From positions 3,224,001 to 3,288,000 of the forward strand of contig CP129291.1 in assembly GCA_030437565.1 (NCBI GenBank): a stretch of DNA of 64,000 nucleotides, written 5' to 3'. Shown here in pieces: positions 1,741-59,867 of this stretch. Below the pieces are notes generated by a model that was not told the origin of the DNA, did no database searches, and was given only the letters and a program-made list of their open reading frames with translations. Within the stretch, counting starts at the first letter, position 1. Every line of letters starts with the position of its first letter. This DNA comes from Terrilactibacillus sp. S3-3 (GTDB taxonomy: Bacteria; Bacillota; Bacilli; Bacillales; Sporolactobacillaceae). Made by a program: the position numbers and the translations under genes.

Positions 1741-1767
1741 GAAATCAAAAAAGGAATAACGCGAAAC

Positions 1768-4410: not shown

Positions 4411-4436
4411 GTTTTCATTTTGTGAGGGTGAAAAAA

Positions 4437-7376: not shown

Positions 7377-7387
7377 GCTGGATTTTA

Positions 7388-7413: not shown

Positions 7414-7460
7414 CCTTAATGTTTATTTTTTTTACCTTGATCACCGGAAACCGCAGCCGT

Positions 7461-8464: not shown

Positions 8465-8540
8465 CCTTCATTCCTCCGTTTCTATATTAAAAGCATAAAA
8501 ATACAATGAATGCGTCAGCTATCATTATGTTAATTGAAAT

Positions 8541-8555
8541 TGATTTTCATTATCA
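8541..8555. promoter_or_regulatory. Fur box upstream of tatA
   Basis: TGATTTTCATTATCA matches the 7-1-7 Fur consensus TGATAATNATTATCA on the complementary strand at 13 of 15 positions. It lies about 80 bases upstream of tatA; the divergent efeUOB operon has a perfect copy. Confidence 0.7.
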
Positions 8556-8717
8556 TTGTTAGTTTAAGATACACTGCCGTTCGTGTCAACCCTTGTAATG
8601 AGAATAAGCAGCCAATTTTAACTTGTGAACTACCCACCACTTAACCAACCTTACGGTCTGCTTGAAGTGGGGGCTTCTCGACTTATCGTTACTTTTACTA
8701 GCTAACGAAAAATGACC

Positions 8718-8756
8718 GAGCTAACCCTCTTGTTCCAAGAGTTTTTTTTTTTTTTT
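8718..8756 (+). terminator. hairpin plus T15 run at the IS right end
   Basis: CTCTTG-TTC-CAAGAG followed by 15 Ts forms a textbook plus-strand terminator pointing into the tnpB 3' end. On the minus strand the same sequence is A15 plus a hairpin in the region expected to encode the 3' guide RNA scaffold. It would block read-in transcription from the tatA side. Confidence 0.6.
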
Positions 8757-26926: not shown

Positions 26927-27125
26927 AAACTTCAATCAGTGGGGAGTTTTCTTCCATACCCCACTGATTGTTAGCTCTTGCCCACAGGACGTGGGTCACA
27001 CAGACGTTGCCACAGGATGTGGCGCCTTTAGTCTGTGTTCCTAAGACCGGGCGTTTACGGGCAGTTTCTCTCACCTATGCTTCTTCGAATTCATTGGAGC
27101 CTTGAGGTGGGAGTCTTACTGCCCG
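26927..27125 (-). mobile_element. IS605-type miniature element (candidate)
   Basis: On the minus strand the right border reads GGGCAGTAAGACTCCCACC...TAGGTGAGAG, matching the left ends of the two full elements here. The other border is a 12-bp hairpin (CAATCAGTGGGG/CCCCACTGATTG) followed by AGTTTCA, similar to the GTAGTTCA right ends. In between are structured repeats CCACAGGACGTGG and CCACAGGATGTGG and no gene. It starts right after the hemQ stop. I infer a palindrome-associated miniature element or orphan guide-RNA scaffold. Confidence 0.4.
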
Positions 27126-34107: not shown

Positions 34108-35492
34108 TGAACTACCCCCACTTAACAACCTTTGGCTTGTTTGAAGTGGGAGATTCCTAAGAACACCGGCGCAGCCGCCGGTTATGGATTAGGCGATCCC
34201 CGCAGTCCCTGCGGTTAGAAGCCTTATCGCTTCATTTTTAAGATTGATACTTGCGTTCATATCTCGATCATGATGGGCATGGCATTTTGGACAGTCCCAT
34301 TCACGCAATCCGAGCTGTTTGACGTCTTTATTTTGGTAGCCGCAACAAGAACAAAACTGGCTGGAAGGAAAGGTTTTCGCCACCGTAACGACGCACTTGC
34401 CATACCACTTGGCTTTATATTCAATCATTGTTTTGAATTGTGACCAGAGACACTTCACTGATCGCTTTTGCAAGATGATGATTTTGTAACAGGTTGGATA
34501 CAGACAAATCCTCCATCCCGATCACATCGTGGTTTTTGACGATTTCGGTGGAGATTTTGTCTAGGTAATCTTTCCGTGCATTGGCCACCTTTTCGTGGAT
34601 ACGGGCGACTTTGATTTTGGCTTTGTGCCAATTGGACCCGCCCACAGAACGCCTGCTCATGATCCGCTGGGCTTTGACCAATTTTTCTTCCAAGGTGCGG
34701 AAAAACTTGAGGTTGGTGTGTACTGTCCCATCCGAGAGAATCGCAAAGTTTTTGAGCCCGACATCAATGCCAACAGCTGAATGGGTTTTCGGCCATGCGG
34801 AAACTTCTACCTCGGTGCCTATTGATACAAAGTATTTGCCGGAGGGAGCCCGTCTGATCGTGGCATTCATAATCCTGCCTTGGACATCGCGGCTTTTGGC
34901 AAAACGAACCAAACCAAGTTTCGGCAGTTTGATATGGTTTCCAATGCCGCAATATTATGATTGGTCATCTTCGTTGTGTACGACTGAATCGGATGTTTCT
35001 TTGATTTAAAACGCGGGTATTTGGTTTGTTTTTTGTAGTATCGGTGATAGGCATCCGCCAAGTTTTCAACAGATTTTTGCAAGGCGATACTGTCCACTTC
35101 TTTTAGAAAAGCAGAGTGGCTCTTGAGTTCAGGAAGGGCTTTGACTGTTTCATATTTGTTGAGGCGTTCACCTTTCCAAGAGTTAGCTGGAATCTGGCCG
35201 TTTTGAACCATTTCTTCGACAATCTGCCAGTAGGCATCTTTTTCTTTCTGCTTACCCAGAAAGAAATTAAACACAAATCGAGAACAGCCGATGGTTTTGT
35301 TGATGAGTCCCACCTGTTTTTTGTTTGGAAAGATGCGAAACTTATAGGCTTTGTTGACCAGCATAGTGTTCGCCCCCATACACAGAACTTATGTTCGTGA
35401 ATATTATAGCATGACAGACAGAAACGGGAGTTGCAACAAGCAGATGGCTCATCTCCCGCTTAGCAACACTTGAAGCGGGAGTCTTCTGCCGA
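34108..35492 (-). mobile_element. IS605-family element, tnpB only (IS1341 type)
   Basis: About 1.39 kb with tnpB but no tnpA. The right end on the minus strand is CTCCCACTTCAAAC...TTAAGTGGGGGTAGTTCA (to 34108), preceded by an ACCGGCG/CGCCGGT hairpin where the guide-RNA scaffold is expected. The left end CGGCAGAAGACTCCCGCTTCAAG...AAGCGGGAGATGA lies at 35430-35492. Such elements depend on a TnpA in trans; the one at 9.9 kb is a candidate. Confidence 0.8.
34189..35364 (-). CDS. tnpB: TnpB of IS1341-type element, frameshifted
   Basis: Start [33 protein letters not shown], the usual TnpB entry. After a break near 34935 it continues with [18 protein letters not shown] (RuvC Asp), [14 protein letters not shown] (Glu), and after another near 34440 [20 protein letters not shown]...[20 protein letters not shown] (four-Cys zinc finger and final Asp). 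About 391 residues. All catalytic positions survive. Different enough from the 9-kb copy to be a separate lineage. Confidence 0.9.
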
Positions 35493-35621: not shown

Positions 35622-36810
35622 ATGGTTGATTTCAGTCCTTCACGGCTTGTACAGGCATTGCCCGTCAATTATTTCGCCAATATGAATCAGCGGGTAGCCG
35701 ATTATACTGAGCGCGGTATCGACATTATTAATCTTGAAAAAGGGAGCCCAGATCAGCCGACTCCGGACCATATTGTCAAAGCGCTGGAAAAAGCGGCCCG
35801 CCTTCCGGAAAACCATGGTTATCCGCCATTTGGCGGCAAACAGAGCGTACGGGAGGCTATCGCTGCCTTTTACAAACGTGAATATCAAGTCGATATCGAC
35901 CCCGAGACCGAGGTCACAATGTTCTGCGGCGCTCAAATCGCGATCGCGCTCTGCCGCAAGTCCTTCTAAACCCGGGCGATGTCATGGTCACAACCGATCC
36001 AACTTACCCTCTGTATTATTCCGCTGCACGGCTTTCTGGAGCAGGCGTCCACGCCGTTCCTGTATATGAAGAGGATGATTTTTTACCGGATTGGAACAAA
36101 ATTCCTGACAATGTGTTATCTAAAACAGGCATGTTGATCATGAACTATCCTAATAATCCGACCGGCGCCATGGCTACTGAAGATTTTTTTGCGGATACAC
36201 TGGCGTTCGCTAAAGCGCACCGTTTTCCGATTGTCCATGACTTTGCCTATGGCGCTTTCGGCTTCGACGGCAAACGGCCGCTCAGTTTCCTGCAAACACC
36301 GGGTGCTAAAGAATACGGCGTGGAAATTTATACAATGTCAAAAACATATAATATGGCTGGCTGGCGCTTCGGGTTCCTTGTCGGGAACGCCTCGATTATT
36401 CAGGCTTTCAAACGATTCCACGATAATGCCCACAGCGACGTCTTCGGCGCGCGATCGAAGACGCGGCGGCAGCGGCATTGCTTGGGCCGCAAGATTGTGT
36501 CAAAGAACTGAATGCCCTTTATGAACAGCGCCGCAATGTGCTGGTCGGCAGTCTTCGGGACATCGGCTGGGACGTCAAAGCACCGAAAGGATCGTTTTTC
36601 AACTGGTTCAAAGTGCCCCAAGGGTATACATCCGAAACCTTCGTTAATGCGCTGTTTGAAAAAGCGCATGTGGCCATGGCTCCAGGCCGCGGCTTTGGGA
36701 AAAGCGGCGATCAATATGTCCGCGCCAGCCTGCTCGAACCCGAAGAGCGCTTGAGAGAGGCTGCCGCCAGAATACAAAAAGCCGGCTTTTTTCAAAAGCT
36801 GAATGTCTGA
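35622..36810 (+). CDS. PLP-dependent aminotransferase, class I/II, frameshifted
   Basis: Fold-type I aminotransferase of about 396 residues. Motifs: GIDIINLEKGSPDQPTP, GYPPFGGKQSVREAIAAFY, then after one break near 35950 DPTYPLYYSAARLSGA, MNYPNNPTGAMA, VHDFAYGAFGFDG and the PLP-Lys motif SKTYNMAGWRFGF; after another near 36450 it continues to 36810. Related to methionine/aromatic transaminases (YbdL) and LL-DAP aminotransferase-like PatA. A truncated paralogue follows the SAM-riboswitch dehydrogenase at 42 kb, suggesting a link to methionine. AAGGGGG and a T11 run precede ATG 35622. Confidence 0.88.
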
Positions 36811-38469: not shown

Positions 38470-39573
38470 ATGATCGATTCATCGCCTGCTATCGTTAAAG
38501 CCGGACCGCAAGCCTTTATGACCGGAGAAGGTATCTTGCAATCACTGCCCGCGTTATTAAAAGAGCGGCAATTAAAAAATTTAATGATTGTACACGGGGA
38601 AAAAGCATTAAAGGCCGCCGAACCTTTCATGCCGAGCCTGGATGATTTTAGTGTCCATTTCGAAAACTACCACGGTGAATGCACCGCCGATGAAATTTCC
38701 CGAATCGCCGCTCTGGCTGAGAAACTTTCCGCGGATGTTTTGATCGCGATCGGCGGCGGCAAAGTGATGGATATCGTTAAAGCGGCCGCCTTTAAAATAA
38801 ATGTTCCGGAGATTCTTGTCCCTACCGTCCCGTCCAATTGCGCTGCCTTTGCATCGCTAAGCATTGTTTACAATGAGAACGGCGCAGAGCCCGAACTGCT
38901 GCCGTTTACAAGAACACCTCATCTTGTGCTGATCGAACCGAAAATTCTTGTTCGTGCACCGATAAAGTATTTGATAGCCGGAATCGGGGATACACTGGCC
39001 AAATGGTATGAATGCAAAATTGGCTTGGAAGCGGTCAAAAATAAATCGATCGCCTTGACATTCAGTTACGAGGCCGCCCGGATATGCCGCGACAAACTGC
39101 TTGAAAATGGCGGACAAGCCTTGCATGATGCAAAGGATGGAAATATATCCAAAGCTTTTCTAACCGTCATCGATGCCGTTTTCTTTGGAGCGGGCATTAT
39201 CGGCGGGCTGGGAAATCCCTATGCCGACGCCGTTGGCGGCCATGCCTTCTATAACGCCGCGACTTCGATTCCGGAAACTCACTCTGTGCTCCACGGCACG
39301 CAGGTGGCTTACGGCCTTCTGCTGCAGCTGGCTTTGGAAAATAAGAACGATGAAATCAAGCAGCTGTTTCCTTTTTACCGCACCATTGGCCTGCCGGTGT
39401 CTGCCCGCGATGTACATCTTGACAACCGGAATAACTTGGAAGCCGTTGCCGCGAAAATGGCTGAACCGGGATCACTGATCCACGCTTTGCCGCGACAAAT
39501 CAGTGCCCGGGACATTCTCCAAGCGGTGAAGGATGTCGAAGCAATTACACAGAACCTGCTCATTCACAAATAG
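38470..39573 (+). CDS. iron-containing ADH-family dehydrogenase (YbdH/HcxA-like), copy 1
   Basis: An intact 367-residue oxidoreductase of the glycerol-dehydrogenase/Fe-ADH superfamily. NAD-binding IAIGGGKVMDIVKAAAF and VPTVPSNCAAFASLS; metal ligands Asp in AGIGDTLAKWYE, His in VGGHAFYN and His in SVLHGTQVAYGL. E. coli YbdH (HcxA) reduces 2-oxoacids such as 2-oxo-4-methylthiobutyrate-like compounds and neighbours the methionine transaminase YbdL. A close paralogue lies at 41 kb. AAAGGAG precedes ATG 38470. No S-box is seen here. Confidence 0.85.
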   Translation: MIDSSPAIVKAGPQAFMTGEGILQSLPALLKERQLKNLMIVHGEKALKAAEPFMPSLDDFSVHFENYHGECTADEISRIAALAEKLSADVLIAIGGGKVMDIVKAAAFKINVPEILVPTVPSNCAAFASLSIVYNENGAEPELLPFTRTPHLVLIEPKILVRAPIKYLIAGIGDTLAKWYECKIGLEAVKNKSIALTFSYEAARICRDKLLENGGQALHDAKDGNISKAFLTVIDAVFFGAGIIGGLGNPYADAVGGHAFYNAATSIPETHSVLHGTQVAYGLLLQLALENKNDEIKQLFPFYRTIGLPVSARDVHLDNRNNLEAVAAKMAEPGSLIHALPRQISARDILQAVKDVEAITQNLLIHK

Positions 39574-39779: not shown

Positions 39780-40590
39780 TGGCACCCCGTTTTCGGGCCT
39801 CGGCGCTCCATTTTTGGGCCTGAAAGCTCCATTTTCGGGGCTGAAAGCTCCATTTCGGGACCCGAACGCTCCATTTTGGGACCCGAACGCCCCATTTCGG
39901 GACCCGAACGCTCCATTTTTGGGCCTGAAAGCTCCATTTTCGGGGGCTGAACGCTCCATTTTCGGGCCTGAAAGCTCCATTTCGGGACCCGACGCTCCAT
40001 TTCGCGGGACCCGAACGCCCCATTTCGGGACCCGAACGCCCCATTTCGGGACCCGAACGCCCCATTTTCGGGCCCGACGCTCCATTTTCGGGCCTGAAAG
40101 CTCCATTTTCGGGCACCAACGCTCCATTTCGGGACCCGAACGCTCCATTTCGGGACCCGAACGCTCCATTTCGGGACCTGAAAGCTCCATTTTCGAGCCT
40201 GAAAGCTCCATTTTCGGGCACCAACGCTCCATTTCGGGACCCGAACGCTCCATTTCGGGACCCGAACGCTCCATTTCGGGACCCGAACGCTCCATTTTGG
40301 CTTGCGAGCGCTCCATTTCGGATCCCGAACGCTCCATTTTCGGATCCCGACGCTCCATTTTCGGATCCCGACTCTCCATTTTCGGATCCCGACGCTCCAT
40401 TTTCGGATCCCGACGCTCCATTTTCGGATCCCGACGCTCCATTTTCGGATCCCGACGCTCCATTTCAGAACCTGAACGCCCCATTTTGGCTCGCGAGCGC
40501 TCCATTTCGGGACCCGAACGCTCCATTTTCGGATCCCGACGCTCCATTTCAGAACCTGAACGCCCCATTTTGGCTCGCGAACACCCCAAC
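39780..40590. repeat. 21-bp tandem array C (family 1), about 37 units
   Basis: The largest array, about 810 bp. The plus strand repeats GCTCCATTT with spacers of three main types: CGGGACCCGAAC, CGGATCCCGAC and CGGGCCTGAAA, all giving a 21-bp period. Many units contain the 13-bp dyad TTCGGGACCCGAA. Because 21 is a multiple of three and stops are absent, long low-complexity frames are open on both strands; I treat them as non-coding. It follows dehydrogenase copy 1 and precedes the SAM-riboswitch promoter. Confidence 0.9.
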
Positions 40591-40716: not shown

Positions 40717-40745
40717 TTGACAAATCGACTTCTTCCCGTTATATT
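40717..40745 (+). promoter_or_regulatory. promoter of the SAM-riboswitch leader
   Basis: TTGACA at 40717-40722, exactly 17 bases, TATATT at 40740-40745. The aptamer begins 38 bases later. Confidence 0.85.
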
Positions 40746-40782
40746 ACATATTAAACACATGAATTTAATAAGAATAAAATTT

Positions 40783-40888
40783 CTTATCCAGAGAAGCGGA
40801 GGGATCTGGCCCGATGAAGCTTCGGCAACAGGCTTTTATCACAAGTGCACTGTGCCAATTCCAGCGGGCATTTCGTTCGAAAGATAAG
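40783..40888 (+). ncRNA. SAM-I (S-box) riboswitch
   Basis: P1 arms CTTATC and GATAAG enclose the conserved blocks GCGGAGGGATCTGGCCCGAT, CGGCAACAG, GTGCACTGTGCCAATTCC and AGCGGG, as in SAM-I aptamers. SAM binding is expected to favour the downstream terminator, so genes are on when methionine/SAM is low. Controls dehydrogenase copy 2. Confidence 0.93.
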
Positions 40889-40898
40889 GAAGACAGCA

Positions 40899-40942
40899 CA
40901 GCCGCTCTTCCATTATCATCGGAAGGGCTTATTTTTTTTTTT
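40899..40942 (+). terminator. riboswitch-controlled terminator
   Basis: AGCCGCTCTTCC pairs imperfectly with GGAAGGGCT, followed by a run of 11 Ts, directly after the SAM-I aptamer. Confidence 0.85.
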
Positions 40943-41013
40943 ATCTAAAACACTGAAGGCCCCTGCCCCAAAGGCCTGGCCTGCTGATTATCTAATAAAA
41001 GGAGCTGAACAGA

Positions 41014-42121
41014 ATGGGCTATTCATCACCGACCATTATCAAACCCGGACCCCAATCGTATATCAATGAAACGGATGCCTTGCAGTGGCTGCCTGCATTA
41101 TTAAAAGAACGCCGTCTCAAAAAGCTGCTTATTGTGCACGGCAGAAAAGCGCTGCAGGCGGCCGCTCCCTATCTGCCCGATCTCGCTGATTTTGACACTA
41201 CCTTTGAAACGTATCATGGCGAGTGCTCGGAAAACGAAATTGCACGTATTCACTTGCTTGCTGAAAGTCTGTCCGCCGATGCGATCATCGCGATCGGCGG
41301 CGGAAAAGTCATCGATATTGTGAAGGCGGCAGCGTGGAAAACCCATATACCGGAAATTCTGATTCCGACCGTTCCGTCAAACTGCGCTGCATTCGCTCCT
41401 TTGAGCATTATCTACGACGACTATGGCACATGGCAAAAGGGACAGGTTTTCACAAGAACATCCCATCTTGTCCTGATCGAACCTCGCATTCTATTAAACG
41501 CGCCGGTCAAATACTTAATTGCCGGCATCGGCGATACGATTGCGAAATGGTACGAGTGCCGGATCGGCCTGGAAGCGGTTAAAGACGACTCTATCGCATT
41601 GGCATTCAGCCATGAATCTGCGCGTCTCTGCCGCAACAGGTTGATCGAAAATGGCGAACAGGCCCTGCACGATGCCAAGCACGGTCTTTTGTCCACAGCC
41701 TTTTTAAATGTTGTTGATGCGATCTTTTTTTGCGGCCGGATTAGTCGGCGGGCTGGGAAGCCGGCATGCCAGAGCCGTCGGCGGCCATGCTTTTTACAAT
41801 TCGGCGACCATTATCCCGGAAACCCACTCCGTTCCCCACGGTACACAGGTCGCTTACGGCCTTCTGCTCCAGCTTGCTTTGGAAAATAAAACAGGCGACA
41901 TTAAAGCGCTGCTGCCTTTTTACAAGGCGATCGGCCTGCCGGTATCCGTTCATGATCTGAATCTCGACGATCTTGATTCATTGGAAAAGGTCGCGATAAA
42001 AATGGCCGAACCCGTTTCCCTGATTCATGGCTTGCCGCGCCAAGTCACTGCTTTGGACATCCTTGAAGCGGTCCGCACCGTCCGTGAGATGGCGCAAACC
42101 GTTCTCACTGCACAAGAATAG
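41014..42121 (+). CDS. iron-containing ADH-family dehydrogenase (YbdH/HcxA-like), copy 2, frameshifted
   Basis: Paralogue of the gene at 38.5 kb, nearly superimposable along its length: IAIGGGKVIDIVKAAAW, IPTVPSNCAAFAPLS, AGIGDTIAKWYECRIGLEAV; a break in the T-run near 41730 is followed by AGLVGGLGSRHARAVGGHAFYN and SVPHGTQVAYGLLLQLALENK with the metal His residues. About 368 residues. AAAAGGAG precedes the ATG. Its SAM riboswitch ties it to methionine metabolism, which supports reduction of 2-oxo-4-methylthiobutyrate or a similar 2-oxoacid. Confidence 0.87.
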
Positions 42122-42132
42122 GAGGTAACGAT

Positions 42133-42285
42133 ATGTCTGCTTTCGAATCATCGCGGCTTGTTCGCAGCTTCCGGACAATCGTATAAAATTGCATCCAGCT
42201 CCGAGCGCGGTATAGACGCGATCAACCTTGGCCGTGGCAATCCGAAACAGCCCGCGCCCGACCCGCCGGATTGGGTTTTTACCCG
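42133..42285 (+). pseudogene. aminotransferase, N-terminal fragment
   Basis: GGAGG and ATG 42133 start MSAFESSRLV, then after an indel the text continues SSERGIDAINLGRGNPKQPAPD, parallel to SPSRLV...TERGIDIINLEKGSPDQPTPD of the aminotransferase at 35.6 kb. Similarity stops near 42275, where the 3' end of the convergent MFS gene begins. The remaining 90 percent of the enzyme is missing. It would have been the second gene of the SAM-riboswitch operon. Confidence 0.75.
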
Positions 42286-47604: not shown

Positions 47605-47702
47605 GATTCCACCCCCTTTTTATGTTGAATTATAGCATAAATGTTTGAAAATGTTATATAAAAACACTTTTTAACATTTTTAATCATTATACGTTTTATC
47701 TA

Positions 47703-48340
47703 CAAGATGTCTGCTTTTTTATACAAGTCGCGTTGGGTCCGGGGGGTTGGCACGACTCTTTTTACAACTTTCGAACGTTTATTTACAACTTTTCGCGGTT
47801 TATATACAAGAATTCTGCTTTTTTATACAAGTCGAGCTGGGCACGGGGGTTTCGCACGACCCTTTATACAACTTTCGAACGTTTATTTACAACTTTTCGC
47901 GGTTTATATACGACTTTTCCTGTTTTATTTACAAGATCTCCGCTTTTTTATACAAGTCGCGTCGGGCACGGGGTTGGGCCCGTCCCTTTATACAACTTTT
48001 GAACGTTTATTTACAACTTTTCAAAATTTACATACAACTTTTCTCCGTTTGTTTACAAGATCTCTGCTTTTTTTATACAAGTCGGACTGGGCACGGGGTT
48101 TCGCACGACTCTTTGAACAACTTTCGAACGTTTATTTACAACTTTTCGCGGTTTATATACGACTTTTCCTGTTTTATTTACAAGATCTCCGCTTTTTTAT
48201 ACAAGTCGAGCCGGGCACGGGGTTGGGCCCGTCCCTTTATACAACTTTTGAACGTTTATTTACAACTTTTCAAAATTTACATACAACTTTTCGAGGTTTA
48301 TTAACGATTTCCCCTCGTTTATTTACGAGAGCTTCGTCCG
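47703..48340. repeat. 21-bp-based tandem array D (family 2)
   Basis: Five higher-order units of about 124 bp, each built of five 21-bp pieces plus one of about 19. Typical pieces are ACAACTTTCGAACGTTTATT, ACAACTTTTCGCGGTTTAT and ACAAGATCTCCGC plus T/A run; one G+C-rich piece (ACAAGTCG...GGGCACGGG) recurs per unit. Several pieces carry the dyad TTCGAA. It lies between the metQ 3' end and the ycnK upstream region. Open low-complexity frames are not considered genes. Confidence 0.88.
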
Positions 48341-48491: not shown

Positions 48492-49330
48492 TTATTTAAA
48501 GTAAGACGGTAATTTATATCCCTTAAATTCAGCATGTGATTTGATTGCCTTTTGAAAAGCTGCCGAATGGTAGGCCGCGATAATATCTTTGACATATTTG
48601 GAATTCTTTTTCGATTGATCGACAGCGACAACATTGATAAATGGCGACGTCATGTTTTCAAGCTTCAATGCATCCGTCAGCTTCTTCCCGCTCGAGACGG
48701 CGAAAGTTCCCTTGTATGGTCGCGTAATCGACGTCTTTCAATGCCCGCGGTCCCTGAGCTGAATCCATCGGCACGATTTTAACCTTTTTAGGATTGGATA
48801 CAATCGTATTCACCGTCGTATCGATCGGGTCGACCCCTTTTTTCAGCTTAACCCAGCCAATGTCCTGCAGGATGCCGAGTGCCCTTCCCATGTTGATCGG
48901 ATCGTTCGGAACAGCGACGGTCGTGCCGCTTTTCACTCCGCTTAAGCTGTGATGTTTATTTGAATACAATCCCATCGGCGGCGTCGGCACTTGGACAACG
49001 CCGACATTGTGGATTTTCTCCTTTTTATTAATGGACTGCAGAAAAAGGCTGTGCTGAAAAACATTTGCATCCAGTTGTCCGTTGGAAACCGCGACATTAG
49101 GCTGAATACCATCGGTGAAATTCTTGTAAATAATTTTATAGCCTTTCTTTTTCAACTGAGGGGCAATGCCAAGCTTAAACTCGTCGATATAAGGGCCGGG
49201 ATTGAACCCGATCCGGAGTACTTTTTTTGCTGCCGCCGCTTGCTGATCCCGAGTTTTTATTCCCGCAGGCGCCAAGCAATAACGCAAAACTAAGTAAAAC
49301 CGCTAAACTTACCCATACGCTCTTTTTCAT
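48492..49330 (-). CDS. MetQ-like substrate-binding lipoprotein 1, frameshifted
   Basis: NlpA family binding protein. Lipoprotein signal MKKSVWVSLAVLLSFALLLGAC; after an indel near 49225 LRIGFNPGPYIDEFKLGIAPQLKKKGY, NGQLDANVFQHSLFLQSINK, TPPMGLYSNKHHSLSGVKSGTTVAVPND, and after an indel near 48705 the end SGKKLTDALKLENM...GYKLPSYFK. About 279 residues. Last gene of the S-box operon starting at 55.2 kb. Family members bind methionine or related sulfur amino acids. Confidence 0.87.
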
Positions 49331-49406
49331 TCTGATCTCCTTTGGTATCCACTTATTAAACGACATCTCTTTCAAATTCATGGTTTAAAATTTACGGGAA
49401 GGCTTG

Positions 49407-50252
49407 TTATTTATTATTGATAATTTCGGCCACAGGCTTGTCCACCGGCACTTTTGTCCCGCCGAATTCCTTTTTAACATAGTCCTGTATTTCTTTTGAA
49501 TGATATAAGTCCTTTAATTTTAATAATGCCTTATCATGGCTGCGGCTTTTTTTGGTCACCAGCAGGTTTATATTCGCGATTGTATCCTGATTCAGTTTTT
49601 CATGGTAAATGGAGTCTTTAATTGAATTCAGGCCGGCATCCAAAGCGACGCTGTTGCCGATCAGAGCGATCGTAACATCTGGGAGAGCCCGCGCCGTCAT
49701 TCTTCCGTCCATCTCAACGAATTTCAATTTCTTCGGATTGGAAGCAATCCCGTCGATACCGGTGAAGGAATTGAAACCCGGTTTGAGCTCGATCAAGCCT
49801 GCCGACCGCAAGACACGCAAGGCGCGGGCTGTGTTTGCCGCATCGTTCGGTATGGCGACTTTCGCCCCGTCAGGAATCGCCCTAAGGCTTTTGACTTTTT
49901 TCGAATAAATGCCCATTGGTTCCAAATAAGTTGTCGCGATCGCCGCCAGCGGGTTACCTTTTCTCTTATTGTAATCCTGGAAATAGGACAAAGACTGGAA
50001 CGCATTGACATCAATGAGGCCGTCGGTTGTCGCATCGTTGATTTGTGTCCCGTCGCTGAACTCTTTAACAACAATATTTAAACCCGCTTTTTTGGCCGCT
50101 TTGGACTTCGCAATAAACTTCCATACTTGAGCGTCCGATCCGCTTGATCCGACAACGATTTTTTGTGTTTTTTTACCGCCTGCCGAAGAGCCGCAAGCGG
50201 CCAGTACACCAAGTGACAATATTAAAATAAATAAAACAAAACGTTTTTTCAT
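49407..50252 (-). CDS. MetQ-like substrate-binding lipoprotein 2
   Basis: Intact, 281 residues. Signal MKKRFVLFILILSLGVLAAC with lipobox LAAC, then IVVGSSGSDAQVWKFIAKSKAAKKAGLN, DGLIDVNAFQSLSYFQDYNK, LEPMGIYSKKVKSLRAIPDGAKVAIPNDAANTARAL and FVEMDGRMTARALPDVTIALIGN. The extracytoplasmic receptor of a methionine-type ABC importer whose ATPase and permease are not in the window. 77 bases upstream of receptor 1 and just after an M20 gene. Confidence 0.92.
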   Translation of the reverse strand: MKKRFVLFILILSLGVLAACGSSAGGKKTQKIVVGSSGSDAQVWKFIAKSKAAKKAGLNIVVKEFSDGTQINDATTDGLIDVNAFQSLSYFQDYNKRKGNPLAAIATTYLEPMGIYSKKVKSLRAIPDGAKVAIPNDAANTARALRVLRSAGLIELKPGFNSFTGIDGIASNPKKLKFVEMDGRMTARALPDVTIALIGNSVALDAGLNSIKDSIYHEKLNQDTIANINLLVTKKSRSHDKALLKLKDLYHSKEIQDYVKKEFGGTKVPVDKPVAEIINNK

Positions 50253-50334
50253 CCCCAGGTCTCCTCATCTATCGAAAAGTGATAGCCTTTTTATCTGTCC
50301 TAAAACCTGAAGGCGGGAGCCAATCCCGCCCTGC

Positions 50335-51502
50335 TTATGATTCTTTCAACTTTTTCAGTGCCTCAATGGCCAAGGTAGAGAAAAACCGGGCGCTCGGCAA
50401 TAACGCCCTTTCATCCAGTGTAAAAGCCGGATGGTGCCATTCCTCCGTACCCGAAGTCCCCATGAACACAAAGGTGCCGGGAATGACTTTCTGATACTCC
50501 GCAAAGTCTTCGCCCGCGGCCGATGGCACCGGATCGACGACATTGAAACCTAATCTCTCCGCTACGCCCGCGGTCCATTCGGTCAGCCGCCGATCGTTTT
50601 GAACCGGCGGCGGTCCGGGCGTCAGCCGCAGCGTCGCGGCCGCGCCTAAAGCCTGCGCCACACCGTCAATCACCCGGCGGATGGCGCCTGGAATACCGGC
50701 CCGCACATTTTCCTGAAAAGTGCGCACCGTTCCTTCCAATACCGCTTTTCCAGGAATGACATTCCATGTATTCCCCGCCTCTAAATGCGTGACGCTGATC
50801 ACCGCGTTATCCAGAGGACTGATGTTTCGGCTCACAATCGTTTGGAGAGCTGTAATAACATGTGCCGAGACGACGAGTGGATCAATGCCCTTTTCCGGTG
50901 CCGCGGCATGCGTGCCCACGCCTTCAATTCGATTTCGAACCGATCCACTCCGGCCATCAGCGGGCCGTCGGTGATCCCAATCGTGCCGACCGGCAAATCC
51001 GGCTTGTTATGCATGCCGAAAATCGCCTGCACATCGTCAAGTGCCCCCGTTTCGAGTGTTCTTTCCGCCCCGCCGCCGTTTTCTTCCGAAGGCTGAAAAA
51101 CAATCTTCACCGTTCCCTCAATGGCATCCTCCTGCTCTTTTAACAAACGGGCGGCGCCCAAAATGGCCGCTGTATGGAAGTCATGGCCGCAGGCATGCAT
51201 TTTGCCCGGCACTTTTGAAGCAAAAGGCAGATGTGTTTCTTCCAGAATCGGCAGTGCATCAATATCGGCCCGAAGCGCCACTGTCGGGCCCTCTTTTTTC
51301 CCTCTTATTTCCGCAAGCACGCCTGTTTTTAATGGAAAATCCAACACATTGATCCCGGCATCAGCGAGCCAGCGGCGAATAGCCTTTGTGGTTTCAAATT
51401 CTTCATTGGATAGTTCCGGATGTTCATGCAGCGGCGGCGGCGGTAATCAATCAATTCACTTTCCAGCTGCTTCGCTTCCACATCTTTAGCGATTTTGGCC
51501 AT
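50335..51502 (-). CDS. M20 family amidohydrolase 1, frameshifted
   Basis: Metal-dependent N-acyl amino acid hydrolase, YxeP/SndB-like. Order: MAKIAKDVEAKQLESELIDYRR, after an indel near 51440 LHEHPELSNEEFETTKAIR, then RADIDALPILEETHLPFASKVPGKMHACGHDFHTA with the metal ligands, FQPSEENGGGAE (catalytic Glu), GTHAAAPEKGIDPLVVSAHV in the lid domain, AGEDFAEYQKVIPGTFVFMG with the last ligand. A second break lies near 50870. About 389 residues. AAGGAGGAG precedes ATG 51502. In the S-box operon it could deacylate imported N-acyl sulfur amino acids. Confidence 0.9.
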
Positions 51503-51548
51503 TTTTTTCTCCTCCTTCTTTATTTGCCTCCCCAAAATTTCAAGCCGC

Positions 51549-52884
51549 TTATTTTGTCTCAAGCTTGGCAAAGCGGTTCACAGGTTTCTTAAGCCCCAAA
51601 TGGTCGCGGAGCGTACTGCCCTCATATTCACGGCGGAAAAGACCGCGATCTTGCAAAATCGGCACCACTTTGTCCACAAAATTTTCCAAGTCCCTCGGAT
51701 AAGACGGTGCGACAAGCATGAAACCGTCGGCCGCCTTTTCATCGAACCATTTTTCCAACTTATCGGCTATTTTTTTTCCGGTGTTCCCACCCAGTCGCGG
51801 CGGGCACTGCCTTCCATTAAGCCGTACAGTTCACGCAAAGTCGGATTTTTCTCCTCAATCCAGCCTCTCATTCTTTCAAAATGGCTCTGAATGCCGTTTT
51901 CCGGCGGAAACTCAACTTCCCTTGCCGGCGTATCCAAGCTGTACTTGCTGAAATCGACTTTGCCCAAATAGCCGGATAAGAAGCGCAGCCCTTGTTCAGG
52001 AATGAGCAAATCTTGCAGCTCTTGATATTTTTCTTCCGCTTCTTCCTCCGTATCGCCGATGATCGGCGAAATGCCCTGAAGAATGTGCAGTTCGTCTTCA
52101 GTGCGCCCGTAGTCGGGCAGCTTACTTTTTAAACTTTTATAAAAATCCTTTGCCAAATCAAAATCTTTGACATGAGAAAAAACGACTTCGGCCGTGCGCG
52201 CAGCCAAATACTGGCCCGGCTCGGAGGCACCGGCTTCAACGATGACCGGCTGGCCCTGTTCGGAGCGGGCAATGTTCAGCGGCCCGCTGACGGAGAAAAA
52301 GCGGCCTTTGTAATTCAAGCGATGAACCTTGTCCGGATCATAAAACCGGCCGTTCTCTTTATCGAACACAAAAGCATCGTCTTCCCACGAATCCCACAGC
52401 CCTTTAACCACATCGATGAATTCTTCGGCCCGTCATAGCGCTTATCATGCTCCAAATGTTCGTCTTTGCTGAAATTCTGTGCCGTCTGGCCGGTTGCATC
52501 GCCGGTCGTGACAAGGTTCCATCCGGCTCTCCCGTGGCTGACATGATCGAGGGACAAAAATTGACGTGCCAAGTTGTATGGCTCGTTATACGTTGTCGAT
52601 GCCGTGCCGACCACGCCGATTTTTGATGTTGCTCCGGCAATCGCGCTTTGCAAAATGACCGGATCAAATCGGTTGAGAATGTTGGGATGCGAGTCCTCGT
52701 TAATTGCCAGGCTGTCCGGCATAAACACGATATCGAACTTGCCCCGCTCAGCAATTTGTGCCAGATTCCGATAAAAATCAATATCAATGCTGGCGCCCGG
52801 ATCGGCGTCGGGCCGCCGCCACGAGCCAAGATGAATCCCCGTGCCAACCAGATATGCAGACAACTTGATTTGTCTTTTTCCCAT
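51549..52884 (-). CDS. NtaA/SnaA/DszA-type flavin monooxygenase, frameshifted
   Basis: FMNH2-dependent two-component monooxygenase of about 445 residues. KRQIKLSAYLVGTGIHLGSWRRPDADP, IAERGKFDIVFMPDSLA, GTASTTYNEPYNLARQFLSLDHVSHGRAGWNLVTT and HDKRYD; after an indel near 52415 VKGLWDSWEDDAFVFDKENG and GQPVIVEAGASEPGQYLAARTAEVVF; after an indel near 51770 DGFMLVAPSYPRDLENFVDKVVPILQDRGLFR. Similar to B. subtilis CmoJ (YtnJ), which acts in S-alkylcysteine salvage. GGGAGG precedes ATG 52884. Confidence 0.9.
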
Positions 52885-52913
52885 CTTCAAACCTCCCATA
52901 AATCTATTTATTT

Positions 52914-53763
52914 TTATAAGTGTGTTTTATATGTCGACGACAATTCTTTCAAAGAAATAAACGTCGGAATATAATTGCCTTTATAGGTTTGGCGAATAAA
53001 GTCGGCTACTTGCTTGGATTGATAGATTTTCACCAATTTTTTTAATTCCGGCCGGTTTTTGTCTTTAGCGCGAGCAGCAATGATATTGATATAAGGTTTG
53101 GCCGTTTTTTACTCTCATGGTATAAAGCGTCTTTCAGCCTGAGTCCCGCGACAAGCGCCGTGCCGTTATTAATCACCGATGCGGTGACATCGTCCATGAC
53201 CCTCGGCGTATTGGCGCCATCGACCGGGATAATTTGCAAATGCTTCGGATTCTCTTTGATTTTGTCCTTGCCGCCGTCTCCGTTAAAATGATCAACCAGT
53301 TTAATCAAACCAGCCGATTGCAAAAGAACTAGCGAGCGTCCCCAGTTGGATTGATCATTAGGAACAGCGATTTTGGCGCCATCGGGGATATCTTTAATAC
53401 TTTTGATCTTTTTCGAATAAAGGCCGAGCGGAGCGATGATCGTCGTGCCGATGGGAACAATTTTTGTATGATGCTTTTCATTAAATTGCTCAAGATAAGC
53501 AATATGCTGAAAGGCATTGGCATCGATGTCGCCTTCGTCCAGCGGCGTGTTAGGATCAATGTTTGCAGAAAAATTGACCACTTTCACCGTCAGCCCCTTT
53601 TTTTTAGCAATTTTCGCAATATAGTTCCAAGTTTTGAGTTCCGAACTGCGTACCCCCACTTTGATCACTTTTGTTTTTTTTTGCTTGTGCTGCTGTGTCC
53701 GCATCCTGCGCTAATCACCAATAGCAGCAGGATAAATCCGATGATGATTTTTTTTTTCTTCAA
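52914..53763 (-). CDS. MetQ-like substrate-binding lipoprotein 3, frameshifted
   Basis: TTG start region KKKKIIIGFILLLLVISAGC (lipobox SAGC). An indel in the A-run near 53680 precedes TKVIKVGVRSSELKTWNYIAKIAKKKGL, GDIDANAFQHIAYLEQFNEK, IIAPLGLYSKKIKSIKDIPDGAKIAVPND; another near 53112 precedes KPYINIIAARAKDKNRPELKKLVKIYQSKQVADFI. About 280 residues. Second gene of the S-box operon, after the MsnO8-type monooxygenase. Confidence 0.86.
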
Positions 53764-53966
53764 CAAATGATCTCTCCACACTTTCTGTATCGTTTATCTC
53801 TATTTTTAAGCCGAGCCTCTACTAAATCCGCAGCCTGCCGGAAACTTCAATCCAAGCCCGCAAACCGACTGATAAGCCCTGATTGTGACATCTAAAATGC
53901 TTTAAGCATCTTCTAATAGCGCCAGCTGGCATGATTCTGCCATTCTGTCTTTTCCTGTTCGCAAAT

Positions 53967-54990
53967 TTACTGAGCCGCAAGCTGTTTATCATTTAACAGA
54001 GCCTCATTTAAAAGTTTGTAAGTGTGCAGCCGTTTTTGAAAGTCGTCAACGGCCGCAATGATCACGAACTCATCCACTTGATACTTTTTCTGCAAGGCCG
54101 TCAGTCGTGCTTTCAAAGTATTTTTCGAACCATAGATAATGTTGGCCTCCTCAATCTCCAACGTTACCTTTTCTGCGGCATGTTTCTGAAAATCCAGCGC
54201 TTTTTCCAGACTGGTGATCGTCAATGTCTTGCCCGATTCAAAATGGATTCTGATCACCTTATTGTCGGCGGCGAGCTGCCTGGCTTCCTCATCGGAATCA
54301 GCGGCAATCACAGACAGGGCCAGCGCCGCTTTCGGTTCCGCTTGTTCTCCCGGCTGGAATTTTTCCCGGTAGGCGGACAGTGCCTCTTCCATGGCCGCTT
54401 CGTCGCCGTTAAGAAATTGCGCAAAAACATACGGAACCGAAACCCGCGGCCAGCGTTGCACTTTGCACACTTGTGCCAAGCGAATAAATATCCGCCGTCT
54501 GCCGCAGTTCGGGAATCGTTTTCAAACCGTAAAACGGATGCCCTTCCGGAAGCCGATTATGCAGGAACTGAATCAATTCCTGCAATTTGTCCGAAAGCGG
54601 CGGTTCATTATCAACGTTATCCTGCTGCAGGGCCCTTGTTGCCAAAGGAAGGCCGCCGGGCGACCGGCCGATGCCAAGGTCGACCCGCCCGGGTGCCAAA
54701 GAAGCGAGGACATTAAAATTCTCGGCGACTTTATACGGGCTGTAATGCTGAAGCATGACACCGCCCGATCCTATTCGGATCCGGCCGGTTTTCGCTAATA
54801 AATGCGAAACAAGCACTTCCGGAGAGGCTCCGACCACTTTATCCGAATCATGGTGTTCAGCGACCCAAAAACGATGATACCCCCACTTTTCCGCTGCCTG
54901 TGCCAATTCAATCGTGTGTTGAAAAGCCTCCTCCGCGTTTTTTTTTTCGCCGATCGGCGTTTGATCGAGAATACTTAATTTGAGTGTCAT
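53967..54990 (-). CDS. MsnO8-type LLM flavin oxidoreductase, frameshifted
   Basis: Luciferase-like monooxygenase of about 340 residues. Typical start TLKLSILDQTPIGEKKNAEEAF, then WGYHRFWVAEHHDSDKVVGASPEVLVSHLLAKTGRIRIGSGGVMLQHYSPYKVAENF, ASLAPGRVDLGIGRSPGG and, after an indel near 54440, VFAQFLNGDEAAMEEALSAY. Similar to B. subtilis CmoO (YtmO). First gene after the SAM riboswitch at 55.2 kb; probably opens a C-S bond or acts with the NtaA-type partner. GGGAGG-like sequence precedes ATG 54990. Confidence 0.9.
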
Positions 54991-55071
54991 TCTTTTTCCC
55001 TCCCAATTTCCAGATTTCGTTTTTTTGTTTTTACAATTCCTCCGGCTTCGCTGAGTGCGCCATTTACTGTT

Positions 55072-55102
55072 AAAAAAGGCCCTCCTTTTGACAAGAAGAG
55101 CC
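55072..55102 (-). terminator. riboswitch-controlled terminator
   Basis: On the minus strand GGCTCTTCTTG...AAAGGAGGGCC forms a hairpin followed by TTTTTT, between the SAM-I aptamer and the monooxygenase gene. Confidence 0.8.
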
Positions 55103-55140
55103 ATTCCCGAAAAATTCTGCTTATTCCAGCGAATGTTTTT

Positions 55141-55245
55141 CTCATCTTTCGAACACTTGTGGAGTGTCCGCTGGATTTGGCACAGTGCTCCTCGAGCCTT
55201 TTGCCGAGATGTCATCGGGCCAGTCCCTCAATCTCTCTTGATAAG
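55141..55245 (-). ncRNA. SAM-I (S-box) riboswitch
   Basis: On the minus strand CTTATC...GATGAG (P1) encloses GAGGGACTGGCCCGATGA, TCGGCAAAAGG, GCACTGTGCCAAATCCAGC, the SAM-I core. It heads a six-gene operon (53.9 down to 48.5 kb). Confidence 0.92.
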
Positions 55246-55349
55246 AATGTCGGTATTAAATTGATTAATTCATATAAAAATACTAAGGTTTAAGATTGAT
55301 TTAAATTTTATTTCTTTATCGCTGAGATGTCAAGGTATTTTTCATGAAC

Positions 55350-56182
55350 TTATTTCAAATCGTCCGGAATGACCCAATAATGGTTGTGATTATGTTCGGA
55401 AATATAATTTTTGAATGTTTTTGATTGGTAAGCAGACACAATGGCTTTTACCCACTTTTTATCGCGATTCTTCTTGTCAACGGCAACCGTAATTTCCAGG
55501 TCCTTGACCAATGTCTCAGAAAGCAGGGCCTTTTCCGGATCAATATGCGCCGCATAGACAATGCTTCCCGGCAGTACGCCAAAATCGACATCCGATAGTG
55601 CGCGCGGGATTTGCGCGGAGTCCATCTGGATAATCGTCAAATGGCGCGGGTTCGACTCAATATCGTCTTTCGTCGCCAGAATCGGGTTAACGCCTTTTTT
55701 TAGCGTGATCCAGCCTGCTTTTTGCAGTAAATGATAGGCGCGGGCGGCATTGGACGGATCCTGAGGAATCGCGATTTTGGCGCCGTTTTGGATTTGTTTG
55801 ATACTCTCATGTTTATTCGAGAAGATACCGGCGCGGACAGAAGGAATGTGCAGCACCGGAACCAAATCGGCCTTTTTCTCTTTATTAAATGTTCTGATAT
55901 ACGCCGTATGCTGATCAACATTGAAATCATGCTTCCTTCCGTTAAGGCGACATCCGCCTGAAGCAGGTTGGAAAAGTTGATCAGCTTTACTGTATATCCC
56001 TTTTTTTCAAGAATAGGTTTGACACCCGTTTTAAATAATTCACTGTAAGGCCCGGGCGACGTGCCGATTCGCAATACTTTTTTTTTGTCCGTGCTGCCGG
56101 ACTGACCGCAGGCCGACAAGCTAAAGATAAATAAACTTGCTAAAAGAATGGATGAGGTGATTTTCGTCAATTTTTTTGTCAT
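55350..56182 (-). CDS. MetQ-like substrate-binding lipoprotein 4, frameshifted
   Basis: Signal MTKKLTKITSSILLASLFIFSLSAC (lipobox LSAC), KVLRIGTSPGPYSELFKTGVKPILEKKGY, an indel near 55930, then DLVPVLHIPSVRAGIFSNKHESIKQIQNGAKIAIPQDPSNAARAYHLL and MDSAQIPRALSDVDFGVLPGS. About 277 residues. Closest to receptor 1 in its GPY start. Second gene behind the SAM riboswitch at 57.6 kb. Confidence 0.88.
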
Positions 56183-56274
56183 AATTTTCTCCTAGTTATT
56201 TATGTTCTTTCTGTGATGATTAAATCGGGTCCGACAAAGGGCGACCGGCTGATTGCTTCACCCCGTGCGGGCAA

Positions 56275-57460
56275 TCAGTGCGGCGCTGCCTCTAGGCTCA
56301 CCTGCTCCAAGGCTTTTTTCGCCAATAGGCTGAAAAACTTCGAAGCCGGCAAAAGGGCTTTTTCATCAACCGTAAATTTCGGATGGTGGTGATTAAAAGA
56401 ATGACCGGTGCCGATATTGACAAATGCCCCAGGAATTTTTTGCTGGTAATAGGCGAAATCTTCTCCTCCCAATTTTGGCTCAAGCCGTTTGATCCGATAG
56501 CCGCTTTCTTCGGCTACCGCTGCGGCAAGAGCTGCCCAGTGTTCATCATTGTTAGTTGCCGGCGGGCCCGGCTCCCAATGGAACGCCGCATGAATGCCGA
56601 GCCCCCGGCTGATCCCCTCAACGATCAGCTTGATCTTTTCGGGTACGGCTTTTCTTGTCTCCTCGCTTAATGTGCGAACAGTCCCCTGCAAGTAGGATTT
56701 TTCAGGAATGACATTCCAAGTATTGCCGCTTGTCAGCTGAGTCACGCTAAGTAAAACATGATCCAGCGGGCTGGTATCCCGGCTGACAAGCGTTTGCAAA
56801 ACGGTAATAAGATGAGCGGCGCATACAACCGGATCACGGCCTTTTTCAGGCACGGCAGCATGGGTCGCTTGACCGGAAAGGGTAATTTCGAAACGATCGA
56901 CTGCGGCCGTCAAAGCGCCGGTTCGTGTCCCCAAGTTCACCAACTTCAAGATCAGGCGTATTATGCAGACCGAAGATCGCCCGAACACCGTCAAGGCCGC
57001 CGCTGGCAATCACGGCCTCAGCGCCGTGTCCCGATTCTTCCGCCGGCTGGAAGATGATGCGGACAGTACCCGGCAATTCCCGCGCATGCTGTTTCAGTAA
57101 ATACGCGGCTCCCAAAATCACGGCAGCATGAAAATCGTGGCCGCAGGCGTGCATCTTTCCCGGTACGGACGAACGGTATGACAGGCCTGTTTCTTCCAGG
57201 ATTGGCAATGCATCGATATCCGCACGAATCGCGACAACCGGCCCTGCAGGATCACCGGAAATCTCGGCAATCAGACCCGTTTTAAGCGGAACGTCAAGAA
57301 TGCGGATGCCAGCCTCAAGAAGTCTTTTTTTTCAGTTCTGCCGTAGTTTGCGTCTCCTCATAGGACAGTTCGGGGTATTTATGAAAATGGCGGCGAACAG
57401 CGGTCAATTCATCCTCAAGATGCCGGAGATGTCATCCAATGTTTTTTCTGGCAAGTGCAT
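56275..57460 (-). CDS. M20 family amidohydrolase 2, frameshifted
   Basis: Paralogue of the enzyme at 50.3 kb. After an early indel near 57430: HLEDELTAVRRHFHKYPELSYEETQTT; after a T-run near 57330: LEAGIRILDVPLKTGLIAEIS; RADIDALPILEETGLSYRSSVPGKMHACGHDFHAA with metal ligands; IIFQPAEESGHGAE; an indel near 56930; ATHAAVPEKGRDPVVCAAHL and GGEDFAYYQQKIPGAFVNIGTG. About 394 residues. AAGAAGGGTGA precedes ATG 57460. First gene of the second S-box operon. Confidence 0.9.
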
Positions 57461-57482
57461 TCACCCTTCTTTCTAAATGGCA

Positions 57483-57512
57483 TAAAAAAAAAGCTCCCGG
57501 AAGCCGGAAGCT
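57483..57512 (-). terminator. riboswitch-controlled terminator
   Basis: On the minus strand AGCTTCCGGCTTCCGGGAGCT is followed by T9, between the aptamer and the amidohydrolase gene. Confidence 0.82.
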
Positions 57513-57546
57513 ATGATGAATCGATAGATAAAGCGGGGGGGTCGAC

Positions 57547-57651
57547 CTTATCTATCGGGATCAAGAATCTTCCCGCTGGAATTAGCACAGTTCCCAGAAG
57601 GGTCTGTTGCTGAGGATTCATCGGGCCAGTCCCTCAACCTCTCATGATAAG
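57547..57651 (-). ncRNA. SAM-I (S-box) riboswitch
   Basis: On the minus strand P1 arms CTTATC and GATAAG enclose GAGGGACTGGCCCGATGAAT, CAGCAACAGACC, GGGAACTGTGCTAATTCCAG and CGGGAAG, a full SAM-I aptamer. Heads the amidohydrolase 2 / receptor 4 operon. Confidence 0.94.
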
Positions 57652-57804
57652 ATATTTCATATTTTTCACAGCTGTATACTATGATTTATATCTAATTTAA
57701 CCATCTCACCTGAATTTGTCAAGCACTAAATCTGTTTTTATGATTCGCCATATACTCGAAACCTTGTATTGGACTAGGTTTGAGAGATTCTCAAAATGGA
57801 CCAC

Positions 57805-58460
57805 CTTGGCGGGTACACGTACAACTTTTCGTCACAAGATTTACGCTTTTTTATACAAGTCGGTACGGGCCCGGGGTTGAGCCCAACTCTTTTAACAACT
57901 TTCGAACGGTTATTTACGACTTTTCGTATTTATTTACAAGATTTACGCTTTTTTTTTTATACAAGTCGGTACGGGCCTGGGGTTGGGCTCGACTCCTTTA
58001 ACAACTTTCGAACGGTTATTTACGACTTTTCGTCATTTATTTACAAGATTTCCGCTTTTTTTTTATACAGGTCGGTACGGGCCTGGGGTTGGGCCCAACT
58101 CTTTTAACAACTTTCGAACGGTTATTTACAACTTCTTGTCGTTTATTTACAAGATTTCTGCTTTTTTATACAAGTCAGGACGGGCCTGGGGTTGGGCCTA
58201 ACTCTTTTAACAACTTTCGAACGGTTATTTACAACTTTTCGTCCTTTATTTACAAGATTTCCGCTTTTTTTATACAAGTCGGGACAGGCCTGGGGTTGGG
58301 CCCAACTCTTTTAACAACTTTCGAACGGTTATTTACGACTTTTCGTCGTTTATTTACAAGATTTCTGCTTTTTTTTATACAAGTCAGGACAAGCCCGGGG
58401 TTTGGCCTAACTCTTTTAACAACTTTCGAACGGTTATTTACAACTTTTCGAGGGTTATTT
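57805..58460. repeat. 21-bp-based tandem array E (family 2)
   Basis: Same family as the array at 47.7 kb. Six higher-order units each contain TTAACAACTTTCGAACGGTT, ATTTACGACTTTTCGTC, TTTACAAGATTTCCGC, a T/A run, ACAAGTCGG and a GGGCCTGGGGTTGGGC piece. TTCGAACG dyads recur. It lies between the M20 peptidase 3' end and the SAM-riboswitch promoter of the next operon. Confidence 0.88.
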
Positions 58461-58529
58461 ACAACTTCCCTTAGTTTAATTTAGTTCGCCTGCCCGCCTC
58501 GCCCGTGAGATGTCCACGAACCCAAATAG

Positions 58530-58575
58530 TACGTTCGCAAGCCAAAATGATCCATTTGCGAGAACCAAGATGGAA
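58530..58575. repeat. degenerate family-1 repeat remnant
   Basis: CGCAAGCCAAAATGATCC and TTTGCGAGAACCAAGATGG resemble the complement of array C units (GAGCCAAAATGGGGCG). It adjoins the family-2 array, the only place where both families meet. Confidence 0.45.
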
Positions 58576-58632
58576 GATGCCCGGCCGCAACCCGCTTTGC
58601 TTGTTCCGCCGGCCGTCCTAACCCTTGAGCAC

Positions 58633-59783
58633 TCAGGAATCTAATAGACACAATTTTTTCAAGACGTTGATCAGCAAATGTGTCCGCGGCACGAGAGACG
58701 GAATAAATAAAAATTCTTTATCGCTGTGCGGATTTCCCCCGGCAGGACCCAGGCCGTCGACCGTTGGCACCCCCGCGGGCCGCGATCAGATTGCCGTCGG
58801 AACGGCCGCCGTCGGCCACAGCCTTCAGATCAATATTCAGCTTGTGCGCCTCGCTTTCAATCAGCGAAACCAGCCTAAAAGAGGCCGCTGTCGGCTCAAG
58901 CGGAGGCCGCTCCATTTCCTTTACTAGAACGGTCCGGGGGAACCTTGGACATCGGCATGGGCGCAGATTGTCTTCATCGCTTCTTCCACCCATTTTTCCT
59001 GCTCTGCAGTACTTATGCGCACATCGATCACGCCCTCGGCTTCCTGAGGAATCGTGTTCGCCGCCGTGCCGCCTTTAATCAGGCCGACATTGACAAAGAT
59101 GCCCTGATCATAATCAGTTAGTGCATGTAATCTCGTAATTTTCATCGCCAAATCCTGGATCGCGTTAATCCCCTTTTGCGGCTCCATCCCCGCGTGTGCC
59201 GCCCGGCCAGATACCCTGATTTTATAGCGTCCGCCGCCCATTCGCGAATGAAAAAAAATGCTGCCCCTCGGCGCCCCCGGGCTCCGTAATCAGTGCAGCC
59301 TTTTTTTTTTCCGCTCGACCGCAATTCGATAATTTCCCGTGAACTGATCGACCCGATTTCTTCATCCGGATTGATGATGATCTCGATTTCTCGCAGGGTC
59401 TGCGAATTTTCAAGCGCCAATGACTTCATGGCGGACAGCAGCATCACTTGGCTCGCTTTCATGTCGAACACACCCGGGCCGTAAGCATAATCTCCCCTAC
59501 TAACAAAAGGGCGCTTTTTAGCCGTTCCATCAGGAAAAACCGTATCCGTATGAACCGTCAGCAGCAACCCTGGATAATGGGCTTCTTTGTGCCTTAAGAT
59601 AACGGTGTTCCCGTAGGCCGGATGAAAGCAGACAGTCGGCACAAAGCCGATTTCCTGATAGGCTGCCGTTAAGATCCCGCTTACTTTGTTCACTCCGGCC
59701 ACATTCATTGATCCGCTGTCAATGTTCACAAGCCTTTCCAGCAGCTCAAGCATCGCCGGCAATTGCATAACCCTATCATTCAT
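58633..59783 (-). CDS. M20 family peptidase, CPG2/ArgE-like, frameshifted
   Basis: Zinc peptidase of about 383 residues. MNDRVMQLPAMLELLERLVNIDSGS; LLTVHTDTVFPDGTAKKRPF (His, Asp); YGPGVFDMKAS (bridging Asp); IIINPDEEIGSISSREII (catalytic Glu pair); after indels near 59310 and 59235, AAHAGMEPQKGINAIQDLAMKI and VNVGLIKGGTAANTIPQEAEGVIDVRIS; after indels near 58935 and 58775 the last ligand GNPHSDKEF. GGAAGTGAG precedes ATG 59783. Glutamate-carboxypeptidase branch, distinct from the two M20D enzymes; likely last gene of the ssu-like operon. Confidence 0.87.
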
Positions 59784-59867
59784 GATCTCACTTCCGATCA
59801 GCTCATTCTTAAACATTATTAAATAAAAATATAAAGCTGTCCGGGCGATCGCAGCCGAACACCCTTT

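Follow-up and report, generated by a model that had tools for sequence, protein, structure and literature searches.

In Terrilactibacillus sp. S3-3, a gene for an iron-ADH-family dehydrogenase of the YbdH/HcxA type lies behind a complete SAM riboswitch (S-box), and the S-box on YbdH-type dehydrogenases is common in Bacillales, not peculiar to this locus. We see about an even chance that the product is a starvation-induced enzyme which oxidises 2-hydroxy-4-methylthiobutyrate to the oxo acid, from which MtnE-type transaminases then give methionine. The whole stretch of DNA that was analysed (64 000 nucleotides) is called the window. Its features around the gene are:

35622-36810, + strand: MtnE-like aminotransferase of the PRK08068 type, with two frame breaks (35945 and 36450)
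38470-39573, + strand: DH-a, an intact paralogous dehydrogenase, 67% identical to DH-b, without S-box
40717-40745, + strand: sigma-A-like promoter TTGACA-N17-TATATT, a sequence match to the consensus only
40781-40890, + strand: SAM-I riboswitch aptamer (S-box, RF00162), full length, above the Rfam threshold
40883-40917, + strand: predicted antiterminator, P1 3' strand GAUAAGGAAGA with terminator 5' arm UCUUCCAUUAUC (RNA fold)
40904-40942, + strand: predicted intrinsic terminator GCUCUUCC/GGAAGGGC, followed by a run of 11 U (RNA fold)
41014-42121, + strand: DH-b, the YbdH/HcxA-type iron-ADH-family dehydrogenase behind the S-box (PF00465, PRK10586, motif residues)
42133-~42262, + strand: truncated and frame-broken 5' part of an MtnE-like aminotransferase gene, behind an AGGAGG (tblastn)

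S-box leader

The first-pass annotation had placed a SAM riboswitch in front of an iron-ADH-family dehydrogenase, and both parts were confirmed: the aptamer at 40781-40890 scores 86.8 bits with RF00162 (gathering score 44.4, E 3.5e-19), and the gene behind it matches PF00465. This E-value and the intact platform rule out a chance match. The same S-box scores 93.9 bits with a model derived mostly from the S-boxes of its own genome, the copy at 40781-40890 included. Genome-wide, 20 S-box matches were found in 3.6 Mb. A search of 34-44 kb of the window with filters off revealed no other credible S-box, and not even a degenerate one was detected upstream of DH-a or of the aminotransferase gene at 35.6 kb.

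RNA folding of the individual segments gave -13.2 kcal/mol for the antiterminator region and -12.2 kcal/mol for the terminator. A UCUUCC segment is common to both, so that the two pairings are mutually exclusive in the computed folds. Judged from its sequence, the leader is of the standard S-box design that is OFF with SAM. Among nine relatives in which the S-box immediately precedes the dehydrogenase gene, seven have a clear terminator, which is present also in the corresponding operon of a Sporolactobacillus-group genome (locus L131).

Several further elements were seen in the window. A minisatellite at 39804-40573 (36.6 copies of the 21-base unit CGCTCCATTTTGGGACCCGAA) stops about 140 bases 5' of the S-box promoter; a repetitive stretch also lies 5' of the S-box at the related L131 locus, and a second, different array is located in the window at 47695-48302. 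The minus strand carries a second S-box-rich sulfur-acquisition stretch at 48661-60000, with four or more genes or gene fragments for NlpA/MetQ lipoproteins, two ORFs of the luciferase-like monooxygenase type, three of the M20 peptidase type and two S-boxes (55139-55247, 57545-57653). A further S-box, accompanied by MetN-like genes, is found 132 bases beyond the window end, and a Bacillaceae-1 RNA (79 bits) at 26981-27047 on the minus strand.

Dehydrogenases DH-b and DH-a

DH-b matches PF00465 at E 6.4e-22 and contains a single frame break, located in a T7 run (41725-41731). The assembly is rich in indels (completeness 76%), and metK itself is split over three frames; frame breaks are therefore poor evidence for pseudogenes. 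DH-a had been missed before, though it is intact and lies on the same strand upstream of DH-b. The best match of the dehydrogenases among all NCBIfam models is PRK10586 (YbdH), below the equivalog cut-off of the model (270.8 bits for DH-a versus 429, and lower for the pieces of DH-b); by these scores, they are relatives of YbdH, not equivalogs. In a tree of 89 dehydrogenases, both window copies group with a protein from the Sporolactobacillus-group genome and with one from Lederbergia.

The metal ligands are conserved throughout the tree: Asp177 in all 89 sequences, His261 and His278 in 87, with gaps in the other two. The Asp/His/His site and the PF00465 match place the proteins in the iron-ADH superfamily. 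Four positions set the family apart from GldA. Cys127 (GldA Asp121), Lys181 (GldA Thr175) and Gly46 (the NAD-binding Asp37 of GldA) are each present in 88 of 88 family members, Arg256 (GldA Gly249) in 85 of 88. The combination of Cys, Lys and Arg occurs in DH-b and in E. coli HcxA. In DH-a, position 256 is Asp, not Arg, which makes the S-box copy DH-b the more typical member of the family. Lys181 and Arg256 are close in sequence to the metal ligands; they are candidates for residues holding a carboxylate, which would fit a 2-oxo or 2-hydroxy acid as substrate. By analogy to known Fe-ADHs, Gly46 would fit an NADP-type cofactor; NADPH-dependent relatives also have Gly at the Asp37 position.

Aminotransferase genes

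An aminotransferase start had been noticed behind the dehydrogenase gene, and the homology search agrees: the remnant at 42133-~42262 is MtnE-like, its part 42176-42253 matching the aminotransferase of the L131 operon with 61.5% identity over 26 amino acids (tblastn, E 1.25e-6). The homology stops near 42262, within about 45 codons, and the truncation looks real.

The aminotransferase gene at 35622-36810, which the first-pass annotation did not list, is located on the same strand upstream of both dehydrogenase genes. It is closest (about 48-60%) to the dehydrogenase-linked aminotransferases of Paenibacillus and Sporolactobacillus. Its best match is the transaminase model PRK08068; split over frames, each piece stays under the cut-off, while an intact dehydrogenase-linked relative scores 526.7 versus a cut-off of 494. 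Transposase-like ORFs (34421-35379, minus strand; TnpB/IS605 type by eye) adjoin the gene on its 5' side, and an insertion there could have separated it from an older leader. The genome has its canonical mtnE/mtnU pair elsewhere (C1:855928-858248).

Occurrence of the S-box-dehydrogenase pairing

We inspected 80 loci of the genome collection, the best ones by similarity of the dehydrogenase alone. An in-sense upstream S-box was found at 35 of them, from 19 genera, and 33 of these have no opposite-strand ORF between S-box and dehydrogenase gene. Seven more of the 80 have an S-box elsewhere in the locus. The examined stretch contained none at 36 loci, among them those of Enterococcus, where neither a riboswitch nor a T-box was detected and where genes for an amino-acid ABC transporter and for an aminotransferase of a different kind lie next to the dehydrogenase gene. 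In two Listeria species (L070 and L073, about 3477-3718), a T-box stands before an operon that encodes an amino-acid ABC transporter together with a YbdH-like dehydrogenase. As a control, GldA-type paralogues were scanned; none of them had an S-box upstream and in sense within 1.5 kb, and the two S-boxes near them were either opposite-facing or not upstream of the gene.

At least five layouts were recognised, in which the partners are genes for the methionine importer MetNPQ, for MtnE, for the omega-amidase MtnU or for a free-methionine-sulfoxide reductase (fRMsr): S-box-MetNPQ-DH, S-box-MetQNP-DH, S-box-DH (with MtnU following and MtnE divergent in some cases), S-box-DH-MetQNP and S-box-fRMsr-MtnE-SDR-DH-MetNPQ. 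The commonest has the order S-box-MetN-MetP-MetQ-DH (19 loci); in nine loci, the S-box stands directly before the dehydrogenase gene, and the remaining in-sense loci are variants. Many moderately halophilic Bacillaceae have a divergent MtnE gene, then the S-box, the dehydrogenase gene and MtnU, which adjoins the dehydrogenase gene in more than 10 loci. Sporolactobacillus nakayamae has an S-box followed by genes for a GAF protein with similarity to methionine-R-sulfoxide reductase (3mmh, E 7e-28), MtnE, an SDR, the dehydrogenase and MetNPQ. Paenibacillus and Cohnella show the order MetQ-MtnE-MetN-MetP-DH without S-box, followed in three loci by a gene for MTA/SAH nucleosidase.

An intact operon of S-box, dehydrogenase and aminotransferase genes is present in the Sporolactobacillus-group genome that is sister to the window clade, and Lederbergia has the same gene order of dehydrogenase and aminotransferase. 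By this comparison, the order is probably ancestral to the clade. Behind the operon at L131 (stretch 1-8950), the same strand has genes for a cystine-type binding protein, an M20 amidohydrolase, an adenylosuccinate-lyase-like enzyme and a second ABC transporter, as well as an acetyltransferase-like ORF; as a whole, the set resembles one for succinylated-thiol salvage.

Proposed function and alternatives

The S-box, like MetJ, turns genes on at low SAM. Low-SAM induction and the company of importer and transaminase genes make it most likely that the gene helps to make methionine, and oxidation of the hydroxy acid with subsequent transamination is the simplest chemistry. With ample SAM, the aptamer would form P1, the terminator would fold and transcription would stop; with little SAM, the antiterminator would fold and the dehydrogenase would be made. 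The NAD(P)-dependent enzyme would then oxidise 2-hydroxy-4-methylthiobutyrate, either taken up or left over from methionine fermentation, to 2-oxo-4-methylthiobutyrate, which an MtnE-type transaminase would aminate to methionine. This transaminase would originally have been the product of the next gene; genes for such an enzyme also lie at 35.6 kb and elsewhere in the genome. Riboswitch anatomy, enzyme family, metal ligands, family-specific residues and the conservation of the operon context are seen in the sequences; substrate, direction and cofactor are what we infer, as is that DH-b works despite its frame break; with that break and the lost aminotransferase, the module in the window may be decaying.

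A module of methionine transamination and oxidoreduction had been suggested from this locus before. The link itself is strongly supported by the context in many genera and by the MetJ-controlled ybdH/ybdL pair. Of the two uses then considered, the hydroxy acid as a source of methionine fits better than its production, given control systems that are on at low SAM and operons shared with a methionine importer. The residue Gly46, with its NADP-type signature, would also suit the reductive direction.

That direction is the core of an alternative which we regard as unlikely: an NADPH-dependent reductase converting 2-oxo-4-methylthiobutyrate to the hydroxy acid, by which the reactive oxo acid would be drained off when in excess or be detoxified. 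Its main argument is the invariant Gly that takes the place of GldA's NAD-binding Asp; this residue favours reduction under cellular conditions and speaks against the oxidative reading. Further, E. coli HcxA is reported to be an NADPH-dependent 2-oxo acid reductase. However, S-box and MetJ induce when methionine is scarce and when wasting its oxo precursor would be senseless, and the dehydrogenase gene stands in apparent operons with a methionine importer. Quite unlikely, in our view, is a different true substrate, such as the glutamine-transaminase by-product 2-oxoglutaramate or another 2-oxo acid (for instance 2-oxobutyrate from methionine gamma-cleavage), the removal of which would pull transamination as MtnU does. 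MtnE-type transaminases do use glutamine, and hydrolysis of ketoglutaramate by the omega-amidase renders this step irreversible in the direction of methionine (PMC6302742). The frequent adjacency of MtnU would agree with such a role, but operons that contain MtnU would have no need of the dehydrogenase, and the commonest layout, S-box-MetNPQ-DH without MtnE or MtnU, would be left unexplained.

Two further alternatives concern the copy and the family. DH-b and its aminotransferase might be pseudogenes, a decayed relic beside a functional DH-a and upstream aminotransferase; the frame break and the early truncation agree with this. Yet the break falls within a T7 run, in an assembly that also breaks metK; the promoter, the aptamer, the terminator and the residues of the active site are undamaged; and Arg256 is kept in DH-b but lost in DH-a. 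We give this a small chance; it is compatible with the preferred hydroxy-acid oxidation for the family, not for the DH-b copy. Hardly credible is a glycerol dehydrogenase or generic alcohol dehydrogenase which came under the S-box by chance. The protein belongs to the Fe-ADH family and its nearest solved structures are glycerol dehydrogenases, but the loss of Asp121, which is Cys in every member, argues against glycerol as substrate, Lys181 and Arg256 are additional, and the S-box association in many genera stands against its absence upstream of the scanned GldA-type paralogues. A GldA-type identity was rejected since the signature residues Asp121 and Asp37 are replaced by Cys and Gly.

Somewhat short of an even chance is what we give to the wider proposal, a widespread, undescribed pathway in Bacilli that would lead from 2-hydroxy-4-methylthiobutyrate to methionine via MetNPQ, a YbdH-type dehydrogenase and MtnE/MtnU, under S-box control and, independently, under MetJ in enterobacteria; in Sporolactobacillus, an SDR would take part as well, possibly for the other enantiomer of the hydroxy acid. 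If true, it would give the orphan YbdH family its physiological role. That this family is found under an S-box, in operons with the methionine importer and the transaminase, in 19 genera of Gram-positive bacteria speaks independently for a role in methionine supply, and S-box and operon context open the role of YbdH/HcxA to direct tests. Since hydroxy-methionine serves as a major feed additive and is a precursor of dimethylsulfoniopropionate, knowledge of its uptake and conversion by bacteria is of practical use.

Comparison with known systems

Riboswitch class, enzyme family and the methionine link in E. coli were already known; S-box regulation and operon context are added here. An S-box of its own on this gene had been noted as an apparently undescribed context. 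A literature search, with the main 2004 S-box survey outside its scope, found no description of an S-box on a YbdH-type dehydrogenase, though regulon databases may list the link.

The Bacillus S-box regulon includes metNPQ, mtn genes, metE and metI, and shares riboswitch class, attenuator logic and metabolic theme with the window locus. E. coli HcxA is reported to reduce 2-oxo acids with NADPH. The ybdH (hcxA)/ybdL pair, to which the first-pass annotation had pointed, proved an apt counterpart: it combines the same dehydrogenase family with a partner annotated as methionine transaminase (YbdL) and is on at low SAM. The ybdH gene of E. coli and its relatives occurs together with methionine-salvage genes and is tightly repressed by MetJ, without a proven role (PMC3228920). 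The E. coli genes are divergent and controlled by a protein repressor, whereas the window has an S-box, and YbdL belongs to a different branch from the MtnE-type aminotransferase of the window (26-34% identity in partial matches). GldA has the same fold family and the same Asp/His/His metal ligands as the window dehydrogenase, but its Asp37, Asp121, Thr175 and Gly249 are Gly, Cys, Lys and Arg in the YbdH-type family, which also differs in its methionine-linked context. With the MtnE and MtnU end steps of methionine salvage, the window module has the aminotransferase family in common; what it has in addition is an oxidoreductase, which would either supply the oxo acid or draw it off.
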